In this document: positions 53,900-64,000 of the stretch, piece after piece | Numbering within the stretch: position 1 is the stretch's first letter | Layout: each line of letters starts with the position of its first letter | NCBI RefSeq assembly: GCF_021391495.1 | Contig: NZ_CP090063.1 | Location: 4,712,001-4,776,000 of the forward strand | Source: Amycolatopsis acidiphila | GTDB taxonomy: Bacteria; Actinomycetota; Actinomycetes; Mycobacteriales; Pseudonocardiaceae | Direction of reading: 5' to 3' | DNA: 64,000 nt | Notes under the pieces: model-generated | Database searches by the model: none | What the model saw: only the letters and a program-made list of their open reading frames with translations | What the model was told of the DNA's origin: nothing | Made by a program: the position numbers and the translations under genes

Positions 53900-53909
53900 T
53901 GGTCTTATG
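53900..53909 (+). promoter_or_regulatory. GntR-regulon core site A
   Basis: TGGTCTTATG ends 8 bases before the GntR ATG. The same core (TGGTCTKATS) occurs at 57496-57505 and, on the minus strand, at 62489-62498. TGGTC matches the half-site bound by FadR-type GntR proteins. Its position suggests autorepression. Confidence 0.6.
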
Positions 53910-53917
53910 ATTGGTCC

Positions 53918-54688
53918 ATGACGTCACGTGAAAGCGCGACCACCAAGGCGGCCGGCAACCCCGACGAGATGTTCAGCCGGGTCAACGTGGGCCGGGTGTC
54001 CGGGCTCATCGTCGACCAGATCCGGCTGCTGATCAGGGACGGGATGCTCAGCGCGGGCGACCGGCTGCCTTCGGAGCGCGAGCTGGGCGAGCGCTTCGGC
54101 GTCAGCCGGGTGACCGTGCGGGAGGCGTTGCGCGGCCTGGAGGCGAACGGCCTGGTCACCATCCGCGTCGGCGCCCGCGGTGGGGCGTTCGTGACCGCGC
54201 CCACGAGCAAGCACGTCGGCGAGGGGATCACCGACCTGCTGACGCTCTCGGGGCTCACCGCCTCGGAGGTGACCGAGGCGCGCCGGGTGTTCGAGATGGG
54301 CTTCGTGCCGCTGGTGTGCGAACGCGCCGACGAGCAGGACATCGCCGAGCTGAACGAGATCTGCGACCGCGCGGACGCCGCGATCGCCGAGGGCGGCTAC
54401 CCGGTGTCGCTGTCCGCGGAGTTCCACGTGCGGGTCGCGAAGGCCAGCCACAACGCCGCGATCGAGATGCTCGCCCAGTCCTTCCACGGCCCGATGCTGA
54501 TGTCGCTGCAGCAGGCCCAGGACGAGGACCCGAAGGTGGGGATCGTCGGCACGCACGAGCACCGCCAGTTCGTCCAGGCCGTGCGCAAGCGCGACGTGGC
54601 GGCCGCCGAGGCCGTGATGAGCAAGCACCTGGCCCGCACGGCCGACCGCGTGCGGGCCCCGAAGACGACTAGGAAGAAGCGGAAGTAG
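53918..54688 (+). CDS. FadR-type GntR transcriptional regulator
   Basis: A 256-residue GntR regulator: winged HTH at about 25-95 (GLIVDQIRLLIRDGMLSAGDRLPSERELGERFGVSRVTVREALRGLEANGLV) and an FCD ligand domain with metal-type residues (EARRVFEMGFVPLVCERA; SAEFHVRVAKASHN; THEHRQFVQAV). No clear ribosome-binding site precedes ATG 53918, so it may be leaderless; ATG at 53969 is an alternative. Its 3' end overlaps the convergent ligJ by 20 bases. It likely controls the aromatic-acid genes through the repeated core motif. Confidence 0.9.
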   Translation: MTSRESATTKAAGNPDEMFSRVNVGRVSGLIVDQIRLLIRDGMLSAGDRLPSERELGERFGVSRVTVREALRGLEANGLVTIRVGARGGAFVTAPTSKHVGEGITDLLTLSGLTASEVTEARRVFEMGFVPLVCERADEQDIAELNEICDRADAAIAEGGYPVSLSAEFHVRVAKASHNAAIEMLAQSFHGPMLMSLQQAQDEDPKVGIVGTHEHRQFVQAVRKRDVAAAEAVMSKHLARTADRVRAPKTTRKKRK

Positions 54689-55664
54689 CCAGCCGCGGGT
54701 AGACCCGGCGGGCGTTGAGCTCGAAGATCTTCCGCTTGTGCTCGCCGGGCAGCGCGACCGCGTCGAGGTATCTCTTCGTGTCGTCCCACGCGATGCCGGT
54801 CTCCGGATCGGCGCCGCGCACCGCGCCGATCATCTCGGACGCGAACAGGATGTGCTCCGCGTCGATCACCTCGCAGAGCAGGTCGATGCCGGGCTGGTGG
54901 TAGACGCAGGTGTCGAAGAAGACGTTGCCCATGACGTGCTCGGCCGGGTCGGGCCTGCCGAGCCGGACCGCGAGCCCGCGGTAACGGCCCCAGTGGTAGG
55001 GCACCGCCCCGCCGCCGTGCGGGATCACCAGCCGCAGCGTGGGGAACCTGGCGAACAGGTCGCCCTCGACCAGCTGCATGAACACGCTCGTGTCGGCGTT
55101 GAGGTAGTGCGCGCCGAGGGCGTGGAAGTTCGGGTTGCACGACGCCGAGACGTGGATCATCGCGGGCACGTCGAGCTCGACCAGCTTCTCGTACAGCGGG
55201 AACCAGTACTCGTCGGTGAGCGGCTTCGCCGTCCAGTGCCCGCCCGAAGGATCGGGGTTGAGGTTGCAGCCGACGAACCCCAGCTCCTCCACGCACCGGG
55301 TCAGCTCCGCGATCGAGTCCCCGAGGCTCCCACCGGGCGTCTGCGGCAGCTGGCAGACCGCCGCGAAGTGCCGCGGGTACAGCACGGCGACGCGGTGCAC
55401 CAGGTCGTTGCAGGCGCGCGCCCAGTCGCGGGCGATCGCCGGGTCGGCGACGTGGTGCTCCATCCCGGACGCCTTGGGCGAGAACAGCATCAGGTCCTCC
55501 CCGCGTTCGGTCAGCACCCGCAGCTGGTTGGGCTCGATGCTCTCGCGGATCTCGTCGTCGCCGATCCGCGCCGGCGCCGGGCGCTCACCGGCCAGCTGCG
55601 CGTCGCGGTAGCGCTGGTGCGCGGCCGGGGTGGTGGTGTAGTGCCCGTGGCAGTCGATGATCAC
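54669..55664 (-). CDS. ligJ: 4-Oxalomesaconate hydratase
   Basis: A 331-residue amidohydrolase-superfamily enzyme closely matching LigJ of Sphingobium, which hydrates 4-oxalomesaconate to 4-carboxy-4-hydroxy-2-oxoadipate in protocatechuate 4,5-cleavage. Zinc and catalytic residues line up: H6 and H8 (DCHGHY), H171 and C176 (MIHVSASC), H216 and H224 ([16 protein letters not shown]) and E277 ([11 protein letters not shown]). GTG at 55664 overlaps the ligK stop by 4 bases. No ligAB, ligC or ligI is in the window. Confidence 0.9.
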
Positions 55665-56347
55665 GACTGCTCCGCGTCGACGTACTCCAGGCCTTTCGCG
55701 GCGAGCCGCTCGCGCATGCCGTGCACGTCGAGGCTGAGCTCGCCCGCCAGATAGCGCTCGCGGACGGTGGCTTCCTTGGCCTCGCGCGCTTCCGCGGCCG
55801 CGAGCACGTCGGCGGCCTTCGCCCTCGGCACGACGACGACCCCGTCGTCGTCGGCGACGATCACGTCGCCCGGCGCGACCGATTGCCCCGCGCACACGAC
55901 GGGCACGTTGACGCTGCCCAGCGTCTCCTTCACCGTGCCGGTCGCCGAGATGTACTTGGACCACACCGGAAACCGCATCCGGGTCAGCTCGGCGACGTCC
56001 CGGCAGCCCGCTTCGATCACCAGGCCGCGCACGCCGCGGGCCTTCGCCGACGTGGCGAGCAGATCGCCGAAGTAGCCCGCGTCCGACGGCGACGTCGGCG
56101 CGACGACCAGGACGTCGCCCTCCCGGCACTGTTCGAGCGCGACGTGGATCATCCAGTTGTCGGCGGGCGGCAGGCTCACCGTCACCGCCGTCCCGGCGAT
56201 GTGGTCACCGGGGTAGACCGGCCGCATCGAGGCGCCGAGCAGACCGGTGCGTGCCTGCGCCTCGTGCACCGTCGCCACGCCGTGCTTGGCCAGCGCGTCC
56301 ACAACGGACTGTTCCGCCCTGGCGATGTCGCGCACCACGATTCCCAT
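55661..56347 (-). CDS. ligK: 4-Carboxy-4-hydroxy-2-oxoadipate aldolase
   Basis: A 228-residue RraA-like class II aldolase that cleaves 4-carboxy-4-hydroxy-2-oxoadipate to pyruvate and oxaloacetate, the step after LigJ. Substrate- and metal-site residues are in [31 protein letters not shown] (Arg116, Asp117). Full length for the LigK/CHA aldolase group. It is 9 bases after the dehydrogenase stop and coupled to ligJ, giving an adh-ligK-ligJ operon. Confidence 0.9.
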
Positions 56348-56356
56348 GTCCGTTCC

Positions 56357-57466
56357 TCACTTCCAGGGCAGCAGGGACACGTGGATGACACCCTCGTCAC
56401 CGGTCCCGCCGACCGAGGCGATCGCGCGGTCCACGTCCTGCAGCCCGAAGGTGTGCGTGGTCAGCAGGTCCAGCGGGAACCTGTTCGACGCCAGCTGCGC
56501 CAGGGCCAGCTCGCAGGCGCGGTAGCTGTGCCCGCGCGCGCTCTTGATCGTGATGGCCTTCTCGGTGACCTTCTTGACCGGGAAGTCGGGGAACGCGGCC
56601 AGCTCGCCCTGGATGACCAGGGTGCCCGCCCGGCGCTTGAGCGCGTCGATGCCCAGCAGGACCGGCGCGGTGCCGGCGCCCGCGGTGCAGTCCAGCACGG
56701 CGTCGACACCCTTGCCCCGGGTGAGGTCCATGATCCGCTCCAGCGGGTCCTCCTTCAGGATGTCGATCACGTGGTCGACGCCGAGGGTTTTCGCCAGCTC
56801 CATCCGGGCCGCGTCCCGCGTCGTGCCGGTCATGATGATCAGCGACGCCCCGGCCTGGCGCGCGGCGACCGCCTGCGAGAGCCCCTGCTGGCCCGGGCCC
56901 TGGATCAGCACCGTCGAGTCGTAGCCGACGTGGGCGTCGAACAGGGTCCACTCGATGCCGTTGGACAGCGGGGTGACGATGCCGGCCGCGTCGGCGCTCA
57001 CCGAGTCGGGCACCTTGTGCAGCACCGCGTTCCACGGCAGGTACAGGTACTGCGCGAAGCCACCCCACAGGTGGTACGGGTTCTCCGCCGAGGTGTAGCC
57101 ATAGCGGCGCGCGTCCGGGTTCGTGCGCCAGTCCGTGGCCTCGCAGTGCCGGTACTCCCCCTGATGGCACCACGCGCATTTCAGGCAGGGCACGTAGTGC
57201 TCGACGAAGACCCGGTCGCCGATCTCGACCCCTTGGCGCGCGAGGAACTGCGCGCCCGCCTTGGCGATCACGCCGACGTTCTCGTGGCCCATGATCACCG
57301 GCCCCGCGATCGAGGGCTTGGCGTACATCTTCACGTCGGTGCCGCAGATGCCGGCGACCTCGACCTTCAGCAGCGCGCCGTCTCCGGGGATCTCGGGCAT
57401 CGGGAACTCGCGGAACTCGGTCCGGCCCGGGCCGGTTCGCACGGCCGCCAGCACCTGCTCTGCCAT
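56357..57466 (-). CDS. Zinc-dependent alcohol dehydrogenase (MDR)
   Basis: A 369-residue zinc MDR dehydrogenase. Catalytic-zinc residues C41 (GICGTD) and H61-E62 (GHEN) and structural-zinc Cys at 94, 97, 100 and 108 are present, and the cofactor domain has IQGPGQQGL. ATG at 57466 is family-consistent; the frame to 57745 adds nothing recognisable. It is first in the operon with ligK and ligJ. In a phthalate-type route it could oxidise the cis-dihydrodiol, a step done by an unrelated dehydrogenase in Pseudomonas (Pht4); this is inference. Confidence 0.9.
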   Translation of the reverse strand: MAEQVLAAVRTGPGRTEFREFPMPEIPGDGALLKVEVAGICGTDVKMYAKPSIAGPVIMGHENVGVIAKAGAQFLARQGVEIGDRVFVEHYVPCLKCAWCHQGEYRHCEATDWRTNPDARRYGYTSAENPYHLWGGFAQYLYLPWNAVLHKVPDSVSADAAGIVTPLSNGIEWTLFDAHVGYDSTVLIQGPGQQGLSQAVAARQAGASLIIMTGTTRDAARMELAKTLGVDHVIDILKEDPLERIMDLTRGKGVDAVLDCTAGAGTAPVLLGIDALKRRAGTLVIQGELAAFPDFPVKKVTEKAITIKSARGHSYRACELALAQLASNRFPLDLLTTHTFGLQDVDRAIASVGGTGDEGVIHVSLLPWK

Positions 57467-57495
57467 GGTCACTACTCGCTCTCGCCGAGGACTAA

Positions 57496-57505
57496 TGGTC
57501 TGATG
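57496..57505 (+). promoter_or_regulatory. GntR-regulon core site B
   Basis: TGGTCTGATG lies between the adh start (57466) and the divergent decarboxylase-like start (57570), where one site could control both. An adjacent near-perfect 16-bp palindrome GGTATGTTAACATGCC (57505-57520) may be a second element. Confidence 0.6.
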
Positions 57506-57525
57506 GTATGTTAACATGCCTTCTA

Positions 57526-57549
57526 CGGGGAACTCCCCGGTTTCCGGGG
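57526..57549 (+). promoter_or_regulatory. Mutually exclusive leader hairpins
   Basis: CGGGG-AACT-CCCCG (57526-57539) and CCCCGG-TTT-CCGGGG (57535-57549) share the CCCC block, so only one stem can form at a time. They lie just upstream of the preferred ATG at 57570 and its GGGAG. This could modulate translation, but chance pairing in GC-rich sequence is possible. Confidence 0.35.
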
Positions 57550-57569
57550 CCGCGAGCGGCGGGAGCCTG

Positions 57570-58508
57570 ATGACGAAACAGCTGAAGACGGTCACCCGTA
57601 CCCAGGGCAACAACGCGGCGCTCAAGGACGGCACGGTCCGCCCCGCGGGTGTCTCGTTCGAGTTCGAGGAAGTCCCGGTGCTCGTACACGCCTTCCGCAG
57701 GATGGTGCGCGGCCTGGAGTTCGACGTCTGCGAGATGGCGTTCACGACCTACCTCGCCGCGAAGGCGCACGGAAAGCGCTTCACCGCGCTGCCCGTCTTC
57801 CTCGTCCGCGACTTCCACCATCGCGCGATCAAGGTGAACACCACGCTCGGCATCCGCGACCCCAAGGACCTCGCCGGCCGCAAGGTCGGCGTGAACCGGG
57901 GGTACACGGTCACCACCGGTGTGTGGGCGCGCGGCATTCTCCAGCAGCAGTACGGCCTCGACCTCGACGCGGTGACCTGGGTGCTGTCCGGCGACGAGCA
58001 CGTCGCGGAGTACCGGCCACCGGCGAACGTGGTGCCCGCACCGGACGGCCGGGACCTGGCGGACATGCTGATCGGCGGGGAGCTGGCGGCGGTGATCGGG
58101 GTCGACGTGGACCATCCGGACGTGGAGTACCTGATCCCCGACGCCGGCGAAGCCGGGTACGAGGCCCTTCGCACGAGCGGCCACTACCCGATCAACCACC
58201 TGGTCGTCGTGAAGGACGAGCTCCTCGACGCCGATCCCGGGCTGGCCGAGGTCGTCTTCGACGCCTTCGCCGAGGCCAAGAACCGTTACGTCGCCGGACT
58301 TTCCGCGATCGCGGAGCCGAGCGCGACCGATCGTCGGTACCAGCGGGTGCGGGCCGTCACCGGCGCGGACCCGCTGCCCTACGGCATCGAGCCGAACAGG
58401 CGGGCCATCGAGCAGCTCGTCGACCACGCCGTGAGCCAGCACATCCTCACCGAGCGGCCCGAGGCCGAGTCCTTGTTCGCCGAGCGGACCCGGCACCTGA
58501 GCGCCTGA
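57570..58508 (+). CDS. 4,5-Dihydroxyphthalate decarboxylase-like protein
   Basis: A 312-residue protein with the periplasmic-binding-like fold used by 4,5-dihydroxyphthalate decarboxylase (Pht5), which yields protocatechuate. There is no signal peptide or lipobox and no ABC permease nearby, so an enzyme is more likely than a binding protein. Family stretches: RGLEFDVCEMAFTTYLAAKAHGKRFTALPVFLVRDFHH and LIPDAGEAGYEALRTSGHYPINHLVVV. ATG 57570 has GGGAG upstream; ATG 57516 lies within a palindrome and was not used. It precedes the RpiB-like gene by 12 bases. Confidence 0.78.
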   Translation: MTKQLKTVTRTQGNNAALKDGTVRPAGVSFEFEEVPVLVHAFRRMVRGLEFDVCEMAFTTYLAAKAHGKRFTALPVFLVRDFHHRAIKVNTTLGIRDPKDLAGRKVGVNRGYTVTTGVWARGILQQQYGLDLDAVTWVLSGDEHVAEYRPPANVVPAPDGRDLADMLIGGELAAVIGVDVDHPDVEYLIPDAGEAGYEALRTSGHYPINHLVVVKDELLDADPGLAEVVFDAFAEAKNRYVAGLSAIAEPSATDRRYQRVRAVTGADPLPYGIEPNRRAIEQLVDHAVSQHILTERPEAESLFAERTRHLSA

Positions 58509-58520
58509 AAGGACCTTCCG

Positions 58521-58973
58521 ATGCGCTTCGCGATCGCGGCCGACCACAACGGTCTCGCCCTCAAGCAGCACCTGATCACCTGGCTGGGCGAGCGCGGGCA
58601 CGAGGCCGAGGACCGCGGCGCGCACGGACCGGACACAGTGGACTATCCCCCGCTGTGCGCCGACGTGTGCTCCCGGGTGCTCGCCGGCGCCGCCGGGTTC
58701 GGCATCGTCGTCGGCGGCAGCGGCAGCGGCGAGCAGATGGCGTGCAACAAGATCCGGGGCATCCGCGCCGCGCTGTGCGACTCGGTGTTCCTGGCCCGGA
58801 TCGCCCGTGGCCACAACGACGCGAACGTGCTCGTGCTGGGCGCCAAGGTGATCGATGAGCTCGTGGCCGAGCAGATCCTCGCCGGCTGGCTCGAAACGGC
58901 CTTCAAGGGCGGCCGGCACCAGCACCGGCTGGACCAGATCGCCGCGCTCGAACGCGGCGAGTCGCTTTCCTGA
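58521..58973 (+). CDS. RpiB/LacA/LacB-family isomerase
   Basis: A 150-residue RpiB-fold protein. AADHNG (Asp8, His9) and GGSGSGEQMACNKIRGIRAALC fit the actinobacterial type in which a Glu (E71 here) replaces the enterobacterial Cys as catalytic base. ATG 58521 with AAAGGA upstream. It is co-transcribed with the decarboxylase-like gene. A ribose-5-phosphate isomerase role in this aromatic cluster is unlikely; a pathway-specific keto-enol or aldose-ketose isomerase (for example on oxalomesaconate) is possible but unproven. Confidence 0.82.
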   Translation: MRFAIAADHNGLALKQHLITWLGERGHEAEDRGAHGPDTVDYPPLCADVCSRVLAGAAGFGIVVGGSGSGEQMACNKIRGIRAALCDSVFLARIARGHNDANVLVLGAKVIDELVAEQILAGWLETAFKGGRHQHRLDQIAALERGESLS

Positions 58974-58975
58974 CC

Positions 58976-59818
58976 TCACCCCAGAAACGCGAGCACCCTG
59001 GCGGGCGCGGTCGTCTCGGTCTGCTCGGCGACCGGCACGTCCCAGTACTCCGCCGTGGGCAGGCACTCCTGGAGGTAGCGCGCCGCGGACGGGGCGTGCG
59101 AGGCGTCCTGCCCCGGCACGATCAGCGTGGGAACGTCCAGCAGCAGCAGATCTTCCGGCTCCGCGCCCGGCACCGTGTCCCGGTCGAACAGCAGCCGCGC
59201 CATCCCGTTGACGACCAGCTCGTAGCGGTCCGGATCGGTCTTCGCGTACTCGGCCGCGAACACCGGATCGGTCCGCAGCACGGTCACCCACGGCCCGACC
59301 CGCGCGTCGGCGGAGAAGCCCGCGTCGGTGACACCGGCCAGGTCCCGCACACCCTGCAGGCCGTGTTCCCGCACGTAGCCGAGGTGGCGGGCCAGCCGCG
59401 CGTGCTGCAGCATCCGGTAGCGGACCCCGCCCGCCGGGGAGAACAACACCGTCCTGCCCGCCCGGTCCGGATAGGACACCGCGAACCGGAGCGCCACCGA
59501 ACAGCCGACGCAGCCGCCCATCAGGTGCGCCCGCTCGATGCCGAGGTGATCGAGCAGGCTCCGGCCCTGTCGCGCGTAGTCGAGCCAGCCGATCCGTTCC
59601 ACCCGGCCACCGGACCGGCCGGACTCGCGCCGGTCGAAGGTGATGCAGGTGAACCGCTCGCGCAGGTGCGCGAGGACGTTCGCCTTCCGGTAGACCCCGT
59701 GCGTGCGCCAGTTCTCGAGGGTGGCGTTGAACCCGCCGGGCGAGAACATCAGCAGCGGCGGGCCCGAGCCCTCGACCTCGTAGCGGGTCAGGATGCCGTC
59801 GAGCACGGTGCTGGGCAA
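58976..59818 (-). CDS. Alpha/beta hydrolase with Cys nucleophile
   Basis: A 280-residue alpha/beta hydrolase-fold protein. The nucleophile elbow reads MGGCVGCS, placing Cys103 where Ser is normal; the acid Asp is about 238 in GQDASH, and no His follows at the usual C-terminal place (VPVAEQTETTAPARVLAFLG). The start is TTG at 59818 after GGAG, 13 bases past the PanB-like stop; GTG 59806 is an alternative. It ends the Rieske operon and faces the RpiB gene. A Cys-type hydrolase (compare dienelactone hydrolase) or non-hydrolytic role is possible. Confidence 0.82.
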   Translation of the reverse strand: MPSTVLDGILTRYEVEGSGPPLLMFSPGGFNATLENWRTHGVYRKANVLAHLRERFTCITFDRRESGRSGGRVERIGWLDYARQGRSLLDHLGIERAHLMGGCVGCSVALRFAVSYPDRAGRTVLFSPAGGVRYRMLQHARLARHLGYVREHGLQGVRDLAGVTDAGFSADARVGPWVTVLRTDPVFAAEYAKTDPDRYELVVNGMARLLFDRDTVPGAEPEDLLLLDVPTLIVPGQDASHAPSAARYLQECLPTAEYWDVPVAEQTETTAPARVLAFLG

Positions 59819-59830
59819 GGAGAGCTCCGA

Positions 59831-60655
59831 TCAGTTCGCAGGGATCCCGCCCTTGATCTGCCGCGCCGCCCGCACGTCGGCCGAGTAGGCGGTGAGCGCG
59901 TCGAACGCGATCCGCGCGACGTTCGCGTAGGTATCGGGGGGATCGTCGAGACCGGACGCGCTGTAGCCGATGGCCGAGGTGGCCATCCGCATCCGGCCGT
60001 CGAGCCACGGGCCGCCGCCGAAACCGCCCAGCACCGGGATCCCCACCGCGCGGGCGACCGCCGCTCCGGCCACCGGGCCGGAGTTGGTGAAGTTGAGCAG
60101 GGACGCCCCGGCCGCCTCCAGGCGTTTGGCCTCCGCGACCAGCTCCTCGGTCATCTCCGGCGGCACCTGGTCGTCCGGGCCCGGCGTCGCGCTGTAGGTG
60201 ACGCCGTAGCGCAACGCGGTCTGCGGGGTGATGCCGAACTGCGCGAACACCGGGATGCCCGCGCGGTGGACCGCGGTCACGGCCTCGGGGAAGTCGGCCG
60301 CGCCGTCGAGCTTCACCAGGTCCACCCCGGCCTCCTTGACCAGCCGGATCGCCGCGCGCACCGCGCTGTCCGTGCCCTCCTGCAGCGGGCCGAACGGGAA
60401 GTCGCAGCTGACCAGCGCGCGTTTCACGCCGCGGCGGACCGCCTGGCACACGGTGACCATCTGGTCCATCGTGATCTCCATCGGGTTCGGCTGGCCCCAG
60501 AGGTTGACGCCGACCGTGTCCCCGACGGACACGATGTCGACCCCGGCCCGGTCGGCGATCCTGGCCAGCTGGTAGTCCCAGGCGACCACCCCGACGATCT
60601 TGCGGCCCGCGCGCTTCAGCTCCCGCAGCGCGGACAGCGTGACCTTCTCCGCCAT
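59831..60655 (-). CDS. PanB-family (ketopantoate hydroxymethyltransferase-like) protein
   Basis: A 274-residue PEP mutase/PanB-fold protein: VSVGDTVGVNLWG and VSCDFPFGPL are the metal-binding loops, with DLVKLDGAADFPEAVTAVHRAGIPVFAQFGITPQ. True PanB adds hydroxymethyl to 2-oxoisovalerate in pantothenate synthesis, but nothing else of that pathway is here. In the Rieske operon it may act as a lyase or aldolase on a carboxylated intermediate, as PEP mutase relatives do. Follows the 165-residue protein gene by 11 bases. Confidence 0.82.
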   Translation of the reverse strand: MAEKVTLSALRELKRAGRKIVGVVAWDYQLARIADRAGVDIVSVGDTVGVNLWGQPNPMEITMDQMVTVCQAVRRGVKRALVSCDFPFGPLQEGTDSAVRAAIRLVKEAGVDLVKLDGAADFPEAVTAVHRAGIPVFAQFGITPQTALRYGVTYSATPGPDDQVPPEMTEELVAEAKRLEAAGASLLNFTNSGPVAGAAVARAVGIPVLGGFGGGPWLDGRMRMATSAIGYSASGLDDPPDTYANVARIAFDALTAYSADVRAARQIKGGIPAN

Positions 60656-60666
60656 GACCTCTCCCC

Positions 60667-61164
60667 TCAGGCCCGCAGTGCCAGGAGCACTTCGGACACG
60701 TCGTTCTCGTCCGAGGTCACCATGAGCACCCGGGCGTGCGGGCGCAGCGCGGTACCGGCTCCGCCGACACCGCCGCCCGCGTCGAGGATCAGGCCCGCGG
60801 TCATGATCCCGCGGGCGGTGCACGCGGCCCCGATGGCCGAGGCGGCGTGCTCGTCCCCGTCCGCGGTCGCGATCATGACCACGACGTCGGCCGTCTCCAG
60901 CTGCTCACCGAGGCTGGACAGCACGCCGTCCAGATCGCGCAGCACGACCGCCGCCGCACCACGCGAGGCCAGCTCCAGGAACCGCGCCGCGTTCCAGCCC
61001 TGCCGGGCCACCCGGCGCAGGATCCCGTTCGCCACCTCGTCCAGTGCGACGACGCGCGCGCCCTGGCGGCCCTTGATGGGCACGTCGATCCGGTACCGGG
61101 CCTCCTCCTCGGTCGCCGCCATCGCGCAGCTGTTGAGCAGCACCGGGCGCATGAACGCGGTCAT
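60667..61164 (-). CDS. Conserved hypothetical protein in Rieske operon
   Basis: A 165-residue soluble protein that I do not recognise. It overlaps the Rieske stop by 4 bases (ATGA). Visible parts: RYRIDVPIKGRQGARVVALDEVANGILRRVARQGWNAARFLE, then a possible Rossmann or tubulin/FtsZ-like turn ADVVVMIATADGDEHAASAIGAACTARGIMTAGLIL. No signal peptide, membrane segment or metal motif is seen. Its fixed place between the oxygenase and PanB-like genes points to a pathway partner. Confidence 0.8.
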   Translation of the reverse strand: MTAFMRPVLLNSCAMAATEEEARYRIDVPIKGRQGARVVALDEVANGILRRVARQGWNAARFLELASRGAAAVVLRDLDGVLSSLGEQLETADVVVMIATADGDEHAASAIGAACTARGIMTAGLILDAGGGVGGAGTALRPHARVLMVTSDENDVSEVLLALRA

Positions 61165-62447
61165 ACCGTGCTCTGCGGGACGCCGGGGCTGGCGGTGAGC
61201 GCGTCCTGGCAGGCTTCGATGAACGAGCTCTCCCGCGGCAGCACGACCGCCGCCGAGCGGACCCGGTGGTGGGCCGGGTCGACGCCGGGCGGGACGACGC
61301 CTTCGTCGCGCAACGCCAGCACCGCCTTGCGCAGCCGCTGCCGCGCCTTGATGATCCCGGTGTCGGCGGAGACCAGCCGCTCCTTGGAGCGGTCCACGAT
61401 CGGCCCCATGCTCTCCTGCAGCGACGCGTCCTGCATCGCGATGCCCTTGATCCCCGAGTACGTCTCGCCGGCGCGCTGGGCCTCGCGGTCCATCAGGTAG
61501 TCGTTGTCCTTGTTGGCCTGCGGGCGGTAGGTGCCCGGGATGTTGGCGCTGTGCACGCCGTGGCCGTCCTTCATGGCCTGCCGTTCGGCCTCGGTCAGCG
61601 CGCGGACCGGGTGGTAGTCGAAGGAGTAGGCCCAGCAGTTGTGGTCGTCGATCGGGATCCAGAAGTGCCCGTGCATCGGGTGGTCGCCCCGGGGCGGGAC
61701 CATGGTGAAGCACGGCATGACCCACGGCGTGATGCGCCAGTAGTACTGGCCGTCCTCGGCGTTGCGCCGCGCGCCGACGAACAGGCCGCCGTCCGCCTCG
61801 GCCACCTCGAAGAACGGCTTGAGGTCGTTCATGTTGTACTCGTTGCCCTTGGCGCCCTTGAACAACGGGTCGCTCTTGAGGCCACCCGAGTGCAGGAAGG
61901 TCACGTGGCTGGAGTCGATCCCGCCCTCGAACGCCTGCAGCCAGTTGCTCTCCTGCCAGCGTTTGGAGGTGTAGGTCTGCTCCGGCGGCACGAGCGCGAA
62001 CTCGAACTCCGGCAGCGGGGGCTGCTTCGCCGGGTCTCCCAGATACGTCCAGAGCACGTCCCCGATCCGCACCAGCGGGTAGGCCGTCAGCTTGACGTTC
62101 GCGCAGAAGTTGTTGTTGTCCGGTTCGGACGGCACCTCGACGCACTGGCCGGTGACGTCGTACTTCCAGCCGTGGTAGGCGCAGCGCAGCCCCGACTGCT
62201 CGTTGCGGCCGAACCACAGTGAGGCGCCCCGGTGCGCGCAGAACTCGTCGATCAGCCCGTAACGGCCCTCGCTGTCGCGGAACGCGATCAGCCGCTCGGA
62301 CAGCAGCTTCAGCCGTACCGGCGGGGAGTCGTTCTCCGGCAGCTCCTCGGCGAGCATCGCGGGAATCCAGTACTGGCGGAACATGGCGCCCATCGGGGTC
62401 CCCGGCCCGGTCCGTGTGAGCAGCTCGTTGATCTCTGGTTTCAGCAC
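61161..62447 (-). CDS. Rieske oxygenase alpha subunit, phthalate 4,5-dioxygenase-like
   Basis: A 428-residue terminal oxygenase. Rieske cluster ligands are C70, H72, C89 and H92 (FCAHRG; CAYHGW), and the mononuclear iron site is in EGGIDSSHVTFLH (D178, H181, H186). The N-terminus ELLTRTGPGTPMGAMFRQYWIPAMLAEELPE is close to the phthalate 4,5-dioxygenase oxygenase (Pht3). GTG at 62447 with GAGAGGTGG upstream. It heads the operon oxygenase-165aa-PanB-hydrolase and uses electrons from the reductase and ferredoxin encoded upstream. Actual substrate unproven; other aromatic acids or methoxy-acids are possible. Confidence 0.9.
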   Translation of the reverse strand: MLKPEINELLTRTGPGTPMGAMFRQYWIPAMLAEELPENDSPPVRLKLLSERLIAFRDSEGRYGLIDEFCAHRGASLWFGRNEQSGLRCAYHGWKYDVTGQCVEVPSEPDNNNFCANVKLTAYPLVRIGDVLWTYLGDPAKQPPLPEFEFALVPPEQTYTSKRWQESNWLQAFEGGIDSSHVTFLHSGGLKSDPLFKGAKGNEYNMNDLKPFFEVAEADGGLFVGARRNAEDGQYYWRITPWVMPCFTMVPPRGDHPMHGHFWIPIDDHNCWAYSFDYHPVRALTEAERQAMKDGHGVHSANIPGTYRPQANKDNDYLMDREAQRAGETYSGIKGIAMQDASLQESMGPIVDRSKERLVSADTGIIKARQRLRKAVLALRDEGVVPPGVDPAHHRVRSAAVVLPRESSFIEACQDALTASPGVPQSTV

Positions 62448-62488
62448 CCGTCCACCTCTCTCGTACTGCGACCCAGCAGCGTCCTAAT

Positions 62489-62498
62489 GATAAGACCA
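62489..62498 (-). promoter_or_regulatory. GntR-regulon core site C
   Basis: Minus-strand TGGTCTTATC lies 42 bases upstream of the Rieske GTG, in the gap after the reductase gene. It repeats the cores at 53900 and 57496 and sits in local AT-rich sequence, consistent with a promoter site. Confidence 0.6.
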
Positions 62499-62518
62499 TT
62501 GGACCGCCATTGCCAAGG

Positions 62519-63742
62519 TCAAGCCGGCGGCGAAACCAGCCTCTTCAACGGAACCTCGTTGTCTCGGGCCTGTTCCGGCGAGATCTCCCCGCCCCGGTCC
62601 AGCACCTTGCGCACCGTCAGGTAGTCGGCGGTGCTGTTGACCGCGTCGACGGCGATCAGCGAGCCGCCCCGGTAGTACAGCACCGAGAACTTCTCCGCCT
62701 CGGGGTCGCCGCGGAGCACGTGTTCGTCGTGGCCGCCGGACAGGCCCGCGATCTGGAGCTTCAGGTCGTACTGATCCGACCAGAACCACGGGACCGCCGA
62801 GTAGGGCTCCCGCCTCCCCAGCAGCGTCGCGGCCGCCACCTTCGCCTGACCGATGGCGTTCTGCACGGATTCCAGGCGTACCAACCCATCGCGGGTCCTC
62901 GGATGCGGCGCCACCGTGCAGTCCCCCGCCGCCACCACGTCCGGCTCGCTCGTGCGCGCGAACTCGTCGACGACGATGCCGCCCGCGCAGTGCAGGCCCA
63001 GCTGCTCGGCCAGCTCCGTGCGCGGCACGATGCCCACGCCCGCGAGCACCAGGTCCGCCGGCACACGGGTGCCGTCGGACAGCTCGACGGCGCGCACCTG
63101 GCCGTGCTCGCCCGTCAGCGCGGTGACACCGACCCCGAGCCGGACGTCGCTGCCGCGGCGCTGGTGGGCCCGGCGGTAGAACTCCGAGACGACGGGCGCC
63201 ACGGAGCGCGGGATCAGCCGGTCCGCGGCCTCGACCACGGTGACGGACTTGCCGGCCGAGCGGGCGACCGCGGCCGCCTCCAGCCCGATGAAACCGCCGC
63301 CGACGACCACCACGTGACGTGCCGCGCCGAGCCGGCCGCGCAACCGGAGCGCGTCGTCGAGGTCGCGCAGGTAGTGCACCCCGTCGAGATCCGCGCCAGG
63401 GACGCCGAGCCGCCGCGGCCGGGCGCCGACGGTCAGCGCCAGCCGGTCGAACGGCAGCGACCGTCCACTGTGGGTGGTCGCGAGGCCCGGTGCCAGCCGG
63501 ACCACCTGCTCCCCCAGCACGAGGTCGATCTTCTGCTCCGCGTAGAAGGCCTCGGTGCGGAACGCGAGCGAGGCCAGGTCCGCCTTGCCGGCGAGGAAGG
63601 CCTTGGACAACGGCGGCCGCTGGTACGGCGGGTGCGGCTCGGCGCCGACCAGCGTGATCGGCTCCTCGTCGCCCGCTTCGCGCAGGGACGCCGCCATCTG
63701 GATCCCGGACTGGCTCGCGCCGACGATCAGCGTCCCGCTCAC
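62519..63742 (-). CDS. NAD(P)H:ferredoxin reductase (FAD)
   Basis: A 407-residue FAD-dependent ferredoxin reductase of the oxygenase-coupled (BphA4-like) type. FAD site LIVGASQSGIQMAASLREAG, the second motif VVVVGGGFIGLEAAAVARSAG for NAD, and the C-terminal VAAGDCTVAPHP and WSDQYDLKLQIAG are standard. GTG at 63742 overlaps the ferredoxin stop by 4 bases. It passes electrons from NAD(P)H to the adjacent 2Fe-2S ferredoxin for the Rieske oxygenase. Confidence 0.92.
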   Translation of the reverse strand: MSGTLIVGASQSGIQMAASLREAGDEEPITLVGAEPHPPYQRPPLSKAFLAGKADLASLAFRTEAFYAEQKIDLVLGEQVVRLAPGLATTHSGRSLPFDRLALTVGARPRRLGVPGADLDGVHYLRDLDDALRLRGRLGAARHVVVVGGGFIGLEAAAVARSAGKSVTVVEAADRLIPRSVAPVVSEFYRRAHQRRGSDVRLGVGVTALTGEHGQVRAVELSDGTRVPADLVLAGVGIVPRTELAEQLGLHCAGGIVVDEFARTSEPDVVAAGDCTVAPHPRTRDGLVRLESVQNAIGQAKVAAATLLGRREPYSAVPWFWSDQYDLKLQIAGLSGGHDEHVLRGDPEAEKFSVLYYRGGSLIAVDAVNSTADYLTVRKVLDRGGEISPEQARDNEVPLKRLVSPPA

Positions 63743-64000
63743 GGCTGGACCGGCGGGATGTCCACGGTGAGCCCGTCGAGCTCCTCGGTCATCTCGATCT
63801 GACAGCCGAGCCTGCTGCCTTCGCGCCGCTCGGTGACCGCGAGGTCGAGCAGGTCCTCCTCGGTGTCGTTCGGCTCGCCCACGAGCGGCAGCGACTCGGG
63901 CCGGACGTAGACGTGGCAGGTGGCGCAGCTGGCGTTTCCCCCGCATTCGGCGACGATGCCCGGCACCCCGTGCCGGGTCGCCGCCATCATCACGCTCTCC
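63739..64000 (-). CDS. 2Fe-2S ferredoxin (5' end off window)
   Basis: The frame enters from beyond 64000 (ESVMMAATRHGVPGIVAECGGNASCATCHVYV...), so the N-terminal strand is missing and the visible part is about 86 residues. Cluster ligands CGGNASCATC and the later RLGCQ identify a plant/putidaredoxin-type 2Fe-2S ferredoxin. The stop overlaps the reductase start by 4 bases. It should shuttle electrons between the reductase and the Rieske oxygenase. Confidence 0.9.
   Translation of the reverse strand, partial: ESVMMAATRHGVPGIVAECGGNASCATCHVYVRPESLPLVGEPNDTEEDLLDLAVTERREGSRLGCQIEMTEELDGLTVDIPPVQP

Follow-up and report, generated by a model that had tools for sequence, protein, structure and literature searches.

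Organization of the cluster

The genome of Amycolatopsis acidiphila is a single 8.18-Mb contig (C1), and at the end of the 64000-nucleotide stretch of it analysed here (the window) lies a catabolic cluster, at positions 53918–64000, in which genes for a Rieske oxygenase, a ferredoxin and a reductase are accompanied by those for LigJ- and LigK-type enzymes and by further genes, among them one for a 165-residue protein that we call p165. The cluster may encode a LigAB-free entry into the LigJ/LigK end of aromatic catabolism, and it occurs in actinomycetes and, minus the PanB-like gene, in rhizobia. Its genes were called from open reading frames together with Pfam and NCBIfam scans, and all functions were assigned by homology (Table 1). 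These scans found, in place and with homologues, every gene that a first-pass annotation of the window had named here, and also two that it had overlooked, the Zn-dependent dehydrogenase and the GntR/FCD regulator. The absence of LigAB, LigC and LigI from the cluster, likewise claimed at that stage, was borne out when the 12 cluster genes were scanned against Pfam: LigJ was the only amidohydrolase, and proteins of the LigA, LigB and Gfo/Idh (LigC) types were not found, no LigC or LigI model having been used and the genome beyond the cluster not having been searched for these two proteins.

Table 1. Genes of the catabolic cluster at the end of the A. acidiphila window
Product	Position	Strand	Evidence and remarks
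GntR/FCD-family regulator	53918..54688	+	PF00392, PF07729; divergent from ligJ
LigJ-type 4-oxalomesaconate hydratase (amidohydrolase)	54669..55664	-	PF04909; 479 bits to solved 4-oxalomesaconate hydratase
LigK, 4-carboxy-4-hydroxy-2-oxoadipate aldolase/oxaloacetate decarboxylase	55661..56347	-	NF006731
Zn-dependent (MDR) alcohol dehydrogenase, candidate dihydrodiol dehydrogenase	56357..57466	-	PF08240, PF00107
Pht5-like (4,5-dihydroxyphthalate decarboxylase-like)	57570..58508	+	108 bits to solved 4,5-dihydroxyphthalate decarboxylase (9jp7); alternative upstream start 57516 possible
RpiB/LacAB-family isomerase	58521..58973	+	PF02502
Alpha/beta-hydrolase, Cys in nucleophile elbow	58976..59818	-	PF00561; TTG start
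PanB-like (ketopantoate hydroxymethyltransferase superfamily), altered active site	59831..60655	-	PF02548, 200.5 bits
p165 (165 aa)	60667..61164	-	4-base overlap with end of Rieske gene
Rieske oxygenase, LigXa_C/isophthalate-dioxygenase group	61161..62447	-	PF00355, PF19301
Ferredoxin reductase	62519..63742	-	Pyr_redox_2 and Reductase_C
2Fe-2S ferredoxin (Fer2)	63739..64000	-	continues beyond window to about 64077

Conservation of the cluster

Loci with p165 numbered 43 in species genomes, with five more on rhizobial plasmids, three of which were examined. Wide tblastn-based maps were drawn for 32 actinomycete genomes, namely that of the window, 28 of the 43 p165 loci and three from a sample of the class; two other p165 genomes of that sample, G411 and G079, matched G016 and G001 in their LigJ coordinates and were taken to be the same genomes, so that three new genomes were added. 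An eight-gene core of Rieske oxygenase, p165, PanB-like protein, hydrolase, Pht5-like protein, dehydrogenase, LigK and LigJ was present in 32/32 of these genomes, a count in which the dehydrogenase gene of G014 is split over two frames and the LigJ of G015 is a 37-residue stub at a contig end. The core spans 6.7–12.6 kb in 24 genomes, 16 kb in one and 22–25 kb in seven. Within it, the p165 and Rieske genes lie on the same strand and at most 150 bp apart in 31 of the 32 maps, the p165 and PanB-like genes at most 200 bp apart in all of them, and the PanB-like and hydrolase genes lie within the same distance in 30, those of the dehydrogenase and LigK in 31 and those of LigK and LigJ in 32. The Pht5-like gene is present in at least two copies in 17 maps. 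Ferredoxin and ferredoxin reductase were each found in 29/32 maps, the GntR regulator in 28/32, and RpiB and a histidine phosphatase of the PGAM-like type in 23/32 each, with at least one of these two in every map. The last two genes are each absent from nine of the mapped genomes, never both from the same one, and stand as sugar-phosphate-type enzymes amid genes for aromatic acids.

The PanB-like, RpiB-like, p165 and hydrolase genes had been picked out in the first-pass annotation as a unit, to be looked for alongside LigJ and LigK. Three of the four, p165, the PanB-like protein and the hydrolase, do recur with LigJ and LigK in 32/32 maps, an association that is tight rather than loose; the composition of the unit had to be revised, because RpiB is found in only 23/32 maps, the dehydrogenase and the Pht5-like protein (32/32 each) belong to the core as well, and the PanB-like gene is absent from three rhizobial loci. 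These loci, on plasmids of Rhizobium, Phyllobacterium and Sinorhizobium mexicanum, carry genes for the Rieske oxygenase, p165, the hydrolase, a LigK-type RraA protein, the dehydrogenase, a LigJ-type amidohydrolase and the Pht5-like protein. Considering rhizobial and actinomycete gene content together, the Rieske–p165 pair is the most widely kept part. The gene set was not described in the titles and abstract openings returned by our literature searches, which covered open-licence papers only.

A smaller mycobacterial cluster without LigJ and LigK, which we had considered, proved to be an artefact of 10-kb flanks, as wider maps gave one cluster of 22–25 kb. Inside the cluster at such mycobacterial-type loci, two bicupin proteins flanking an AAA-type protein of approximately 300 residues recur, and further along there are an EutA-like protein, a third cupin, a class II aldolase and an iron-type ABC transporter, all of these names having been given by eye or taken from the Phyllobacterium record. 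Mycolicibacterium frederiksbergense LB 501T carries the cluster on a plasmid of 268 kb (NZ_CP038798.1).

LigJ and LigK and the supply of their substrate

The protocatechuate 4,5-cleavage pathway is encoded by ligABC-I-J-K, and the cluster has LigJ and LigK in common with it, LigK scoring 365.8 bits against NF006731, for which the equivalog cut-off is 179. Unlike clusters for that pathway, it holds no ligAB, and none of its scanned genes encodes a LigC- or LigI-type protein. We looked for the pathway enzymes in 29 carriers, i.e. the window genome and 28 of the 43 p165 loci, which were selected mainly according to how much flanking DNA was available, leaving 15 loci aside; as the carriers were found via p165, the counts apply solely to p165-bearing genomes. 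LigJ was present in 29/29 carriers (E ≤ 1e-40), at 67% identity or more in 28 of them, the weaker match coming from the genome in which a contig end truncates the cluster, and LigK was above its cut-off in all 29. LigA, in contrast with the protocatechuate pathway, was above its cut-off in only four, strongly in the window genome and G028 and weakly in G003 and G015, and 25/29 carriers had none. In the window genome, the sole LigA match (C1:4653745-4654005), with LigB adjoining (the pair spanning C1:4652916-4654005), lies approximately 112 kb upstream of the cluster, and further copies of LigJ and LigK, one of each, are found elsewhere. One of the two explanations offered in the first-pass annotation, that ligAB lies just past the window, was therefore abandoned: the LigA match and the seven PF02900 matches of the genome all fall outside C1:4712001-4795000, so that no ligAB adjoins the cluster. 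Protocatechuate 3,4-dioxygenase (PcaH) was above its cut-off in 28/29 carriers, in which protocatechuate thus has another outlet. The sole carrier without it, Sphaerisporangium album (G018), had no LigA and no PF02900 protein (E ≤ 0.001) either, and Arthrobacter pascens (G024) had PcaH and no PF02900 protein at the same threshold.

We also examined 394 genomes sampled evenly from the class, with a LigJ threshold of E ≤ 1e-100, in which p165 was present in only 6/394 and LigJ in 16/394. LigJ was found in 6/6 of the p165 genomes compared with 10/388 of the others (Fisher p 1.6e-9). Six of these ten LigJ-positive genomes without p165 have a strong LigA, and four of the six carry LigJ, LigK, LigA and LigB on one stretch. 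Compared with this 6/10, a strong LigA occurs in 2/29 carriers (p 0.0014), although the 29 are not an even sample. In a LigJ tree of 50 proteins, 31 of which were cluster rows as the LigJ of G015 is only a contig-end stub, a branch (support 90/84) separates the 31 cluster proteins from the 19 others, and these 19 include second copies from five p165-bearing genomes, i.e. that of the window (G000), G007, G021, G025 and G253. LigJ thus appears to pair with either of two kinds of partner, LigAB or the p165 cluster.

The LigAB genes of the window genome stand in a locus of their own (G000:C1:4642001-4662000), together with genes for a LigM-type O-demethylase (906 bits), another LigM/DesA-like protein and PurU, a set that suggests a locus for vanillate or 3-O-methylgallate, distinct from the cluster. 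In Pseudonocardia alaniniphila (G015:C31:145708-147523), the weak LigA stands next to a PF02900 match and another LigK, perhaps as part of a gallate-type dioxygenase locus.

The Rieske oxygenase and its substrate site

The Rieske component had been placed close to Pht3 in the first-pass annotation, an assignment that we correct here. Its best matches were isophthalate dioxygenase (IPDO) from Comamonas testosteroni KF1 (9ina) with 466 bits, a putative phthalate 4,5-dioxygenase (7fhr) with 344 bits and 7fjl, which we take to be phthalate dioxygenase, with 239 bits; for strain KF1 itself, phthalate dioxygenase scored 239 bits compared with 466 for IPDO, so the Rieske component is not nearest to phthalate dioxygenase, as would be the case in the phthalate 4,5-pathway. 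That dihydroxylation pathway, Pht3–Pht4–Pht5, shares with the cluster a LigXa_C Rieske oxygenase and a Pht5-like protein, whereas the cluster differs from it in a Rieske component nearer to IPDO, in a Zn-MDR dehydrogenase and in the presence of LigJ and LigK. The iph cluster of C. testosteroni KF1 (iphA2CBA1), which encodes IPDO, has a close Rieske relative and the reductase and dehydrogenase partners in common with ours; the genes named in the portion of that report used here are those for the dioxygenase, a reductase, a transporter and a dehydrogenase, with no p165, PanB-like protein, Cys-hydrolase, Pht5-like protein, LigJ or LigK among them (PMC12445078).

The same portion describes R234 and H257 as binding the carboxylates in the IPDO–isophthalate complex, includes V178, L198, I246, F249, I294 and F333 among the residues discussed, and gives V178A/F249H as a variant that admits phthalate and terephthalate (PMC12445078). 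We anchored the alignment with IPDO manually on G172, T175 and V178, which makes the window number equal to the IPDO number plus 4 up to I294. The carboxylate binders and V178 are kept in the window enzyme as R238 (R234), H261 (H257) and V182 (V178), and R253 replaces F249, H259 replaces G255, N202 replaces L198 and I336 replaces F333, so that the specificity residues F249 and F333 and the L198-type pocket of IPDO are not found in it. R253 and H259 were present in 48/48 distinct p165-linked Rieske sequences, and three close unlinked paralogues (57–58% identity) have F and G at these positions, as in IPDO; a fourth unlinked paralogue (40% identity) differs throughout. I336, at the position of the ring-stacking F333, was present in 45/45 sequences. 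As N202 is also found in two of the three close paralogues and I336 in all three, neither marks the p165-linked enzymes, and the association with p165 is confined to R253 and H259. On the basis of these residues, the data point to an additional acidic group on the substrate of the p165-linked oxygenases, and the oxygenase points to a substrate of the isophthalate rather than the phthalate type.

A second Rieske locus in the window genome (G000:C1:5238001-5254000) has an IPDO-like oxygenase, with F at 253 and G at 259, a Zn-dehydrogenase and, as named by eye, a reductase, an MFS transporter and an IclR regulator, and looks like a plain isophthalate-type locus.

p165 and the other middle proteins

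With p165 the cluster brings in a family of proteins that has no match in Pfam or NCBIfam and an unexpected predicted fold. There are 700 homologues at E ≤ 0.001 in the protein collection. Searching Pfam with 29 members at E ≤ 10 returned ten families, with one member each and a best E of 0.014, PF00091 not being among them, and a search of solved structures with the p165 profile gave a best E of 0.23. The AlphaFold2 model, aligned with VIA-align, is predicted to resemble an FtsZ domain. Compared with the FtsZ/tubulin nucleotide-binding domain p165 is shorter, the FtsZ proteins compared being two to three times its length (p165 = a third to a half), and it lacks the GTP motif, i.e. the tubulin signature GGGTG[TS]G was not found in it.

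Two well-defined proteins are of interest for their chemistry, a PanB without the catalytic Glu and a Cys-hydrolase without the usual His. The PanB-like protein shares its superfamily with ketopantoate hydroxymethyltransferase, yet falls under both NCBIfam PanB cut-offs (TIGR00222, 142 of 207.55; NF001452, 176 of 272). Two Asp residues and a Lys of PanB, which we take to be metal ligands and an active-site residue respectively, are aligned, whereas the metal-binding Glu is replaced by Asp and a Thr stands at the position of E. coli PanB E181, presumably the catalytic Glu. In the hydrolase, C103 and D238 were each conserved in 41/41 sequences; the AlphaFold2 model (predicted local distance difference test score 95.7) had a meta-cleavage-product hydrolase and esterases as its top Foldseek matches. 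The Ser-His-Asp triad of meta-cleavage-product hydrolases was not found in it, and the window protein appears from its sequence to have no His after the last strand.

The RpiB-like protein is above the cut-offs of NF004051 (167.8 of 135) and TIGR01120 (139.2 of 138.65) and below that of the actinobacterial model TIGR02133 (121.8 of 168.2), and E71, which we assume to be the catalytic base, was conserved in 16/16 sequences. Neither Pfam nor NCBIfam gave a match for the Pht5-like protein. The other alcohol dehydrogenase noted above, that of the second Rieske locus in the window genome, likewise adjoins the (unlinked) Rieske gene.

A proposed route and its alternatives

We propose, with a probability of approximately 0.6, that this is a self-contained cluster for a multiply carboxylated, isophthalate-like compound, with a LigAB-independent route feeding LigJ and LigK. 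From the gene content and its conservation, the co-occurrence with LigJ and LigK, the rarity of LigA in the tested carriers, the separate LigJ branch and the changed substrate-site residues we infer the substrate, the order of steps, the ring-opening step and the catalytic roles of p165, the PanB-like protein, the Cys-hydrolase and the Pht5-like protein. The Rieske oxygenase, with ferredoxin and reductase, would dihydroxylate the ring, holding carboxylates at R238 and H261 as in IPDO and a further acidic group at R253 and H259, and the diol would be oxidized by the Zn-dehydrogenase. p165, the PanB-like protein, the Cys-hydrolase and the Pht5-like decarboxylase might then open and trim the ring without an extradiol dioxygenase of the LigAB type, after which LigJ would hydrate, and LigK cleave, 4-oxalomesaconate or a close homologue to give pyruvate and a second 2-oxo acid. 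Substrates to try are isophthalates and benzenetricarboxylates, compounds that arise from plastics and from the oxidation of charred organic matter.

In a bolder version, which we consider unlikely, the cluster enzymes would open the ring hydrolytically and without any extradiol step. The Rieske oxygenase would form a 3,4-diol at a carboxyl-bearing carbon and the dehydrogenase a 4-keto compound; rather than losing CO2 to give protocatechuate, this would undergo retro-Claisen hydrolysis of the C3–C4 bond through the PanB-like protein, the Cys-hydrolase or both, with p165 as a partner of the oxygenase. For isophthalate the product would be a C8 homologue of 4-oxalomesaconate, from which LigJ and LigK would yield pyruvate and 2-oxoglutarate, and the formulae balance: C8H6O4 + O2 + 2H → C8H8O6; −2H → C8H6O6; +2 H2O → C8H10O8 = C3H4O3 + C5H6O5. 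R253/H259 and the Pht5-like decarboxylase would suit a third carboxylate, i.e. a benzenetricarboxylate as the true substrate.

Several observations weigh against the proposed LigAB-independent route. The strong LigA matches in the window genome and G028 do so, as do the weak ones in G003 and in G015, where LigB and another LigK lie alongside. Some PF02900 protein is present in 27/29 carriers, so that an unlinked extradiol enzyme is possible in these carriers, type I and cupin dioxygenases not having been searched for genome-wide. Within the even sample alone, LigA was found in 1/6 p165 genomes, the window's own, compared with 6/10, which is not significant (p 0.15), and support for the LigJ branch is moderate. 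The Pht5-like gene would suit an ordinary decarboxylation of the dihydroxyphthalate type, and N202 and I336 are shared with the unlinked paralogues. At the three rhizobial loci PanB was not found within 14 kb, and the protein is therefore not needed everywhere. The second explanation in the first-pass annotation, in which the middle genes provide a different route into 4-oxalomesaconate, is the one that we favour, although for this strain taken alone the LigAB genes approximately 112 kb away leave an ordinary reading tenable.

Such an ordinary isophthalate or phthalate locus would use the Rieske oxygenase, dehydrogenase and Pht5-like protein to make protocatechuate, take LigAB, LigC and LigI from elsewhere and finish with LigJ and LigK, the remaining genes being accessory. 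It agrees with the presence of a Pht5-like gene, with the LigAB genes beside LigM-type O-demethylase genes in this strain, and with a Rieske component nearest to IPDO, whose pathway, in the part of the report used here, opens with 3,4-dihydroxylation (PMC12445078). We nevertheless think it quite unlikely, given that 25/29 carriers have no LigA above the cut-off, that 28/29 have PcaH and one has neither, that p165, the PanB-like protein and the hydrolase are as constant across the maps as LigJ and LigK, that R253 and H259 track p165 and that the second LigJ of the window genome stands on the opposite side of the tree.

Cleavage of gallate to 4-oxalomesaconate is known, and the cluster could instead make a gallate-like catechol for an unlinked dioxygenase, of the LigB-only, vicinal-oxygen-chelate or cupin type, which would form 4-oxalomesaconate with no need for LigC or LigI. 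The PF02900 proteins of the 27 carriers would fit, as would the cupin proteins, named by eye, in 24/32 cluster maps; we regard this as doubtful, as PF02900 was not matched in G018 or G024 at E ≤ 0.001, cupins are absent from eight of the cluster maps and, among the mapped genes, none of the ring-cleavage dioxygenase families is present throughout. A substrate that is not a benzene, e.g. a heteroaromatic or alicyclic polyacid, with LigJ and LigK acting on analogues of their usual substrates, seems very unlikely. The Ile at the ring-stacking position in 45/45 sequences, the RpiB or PGAM genes of sugar-phosphate type in 32/32 maps and the separate LigJ branch are consistent with it, whereas the LigXa_C/IPDO-type Rieske oxygenase, the score of LigJ and the equivalog-level LigK argue for aromatic-acid chemistry, and unlinked IPDO-like paralogues also have Ile at the F333 position.

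Genes beyond the window

Past the window edge lie the remainder of the ferredoxin gene and genes for a PGAM-like histidine phosphatase, UbiX, UbiD and an NMT1-type ABC transporter, and still further out MFS, iron-type ABC and cupin/EutA-like genes, these names having been given by eye. UbiD and UbiX were considered as members of the route and rejected, as they were found in the mapped stretches of 1/32 genomes, that of the window, whose own proteins were the queries; the two genes stand just past the cluster (L009:1865-3911).

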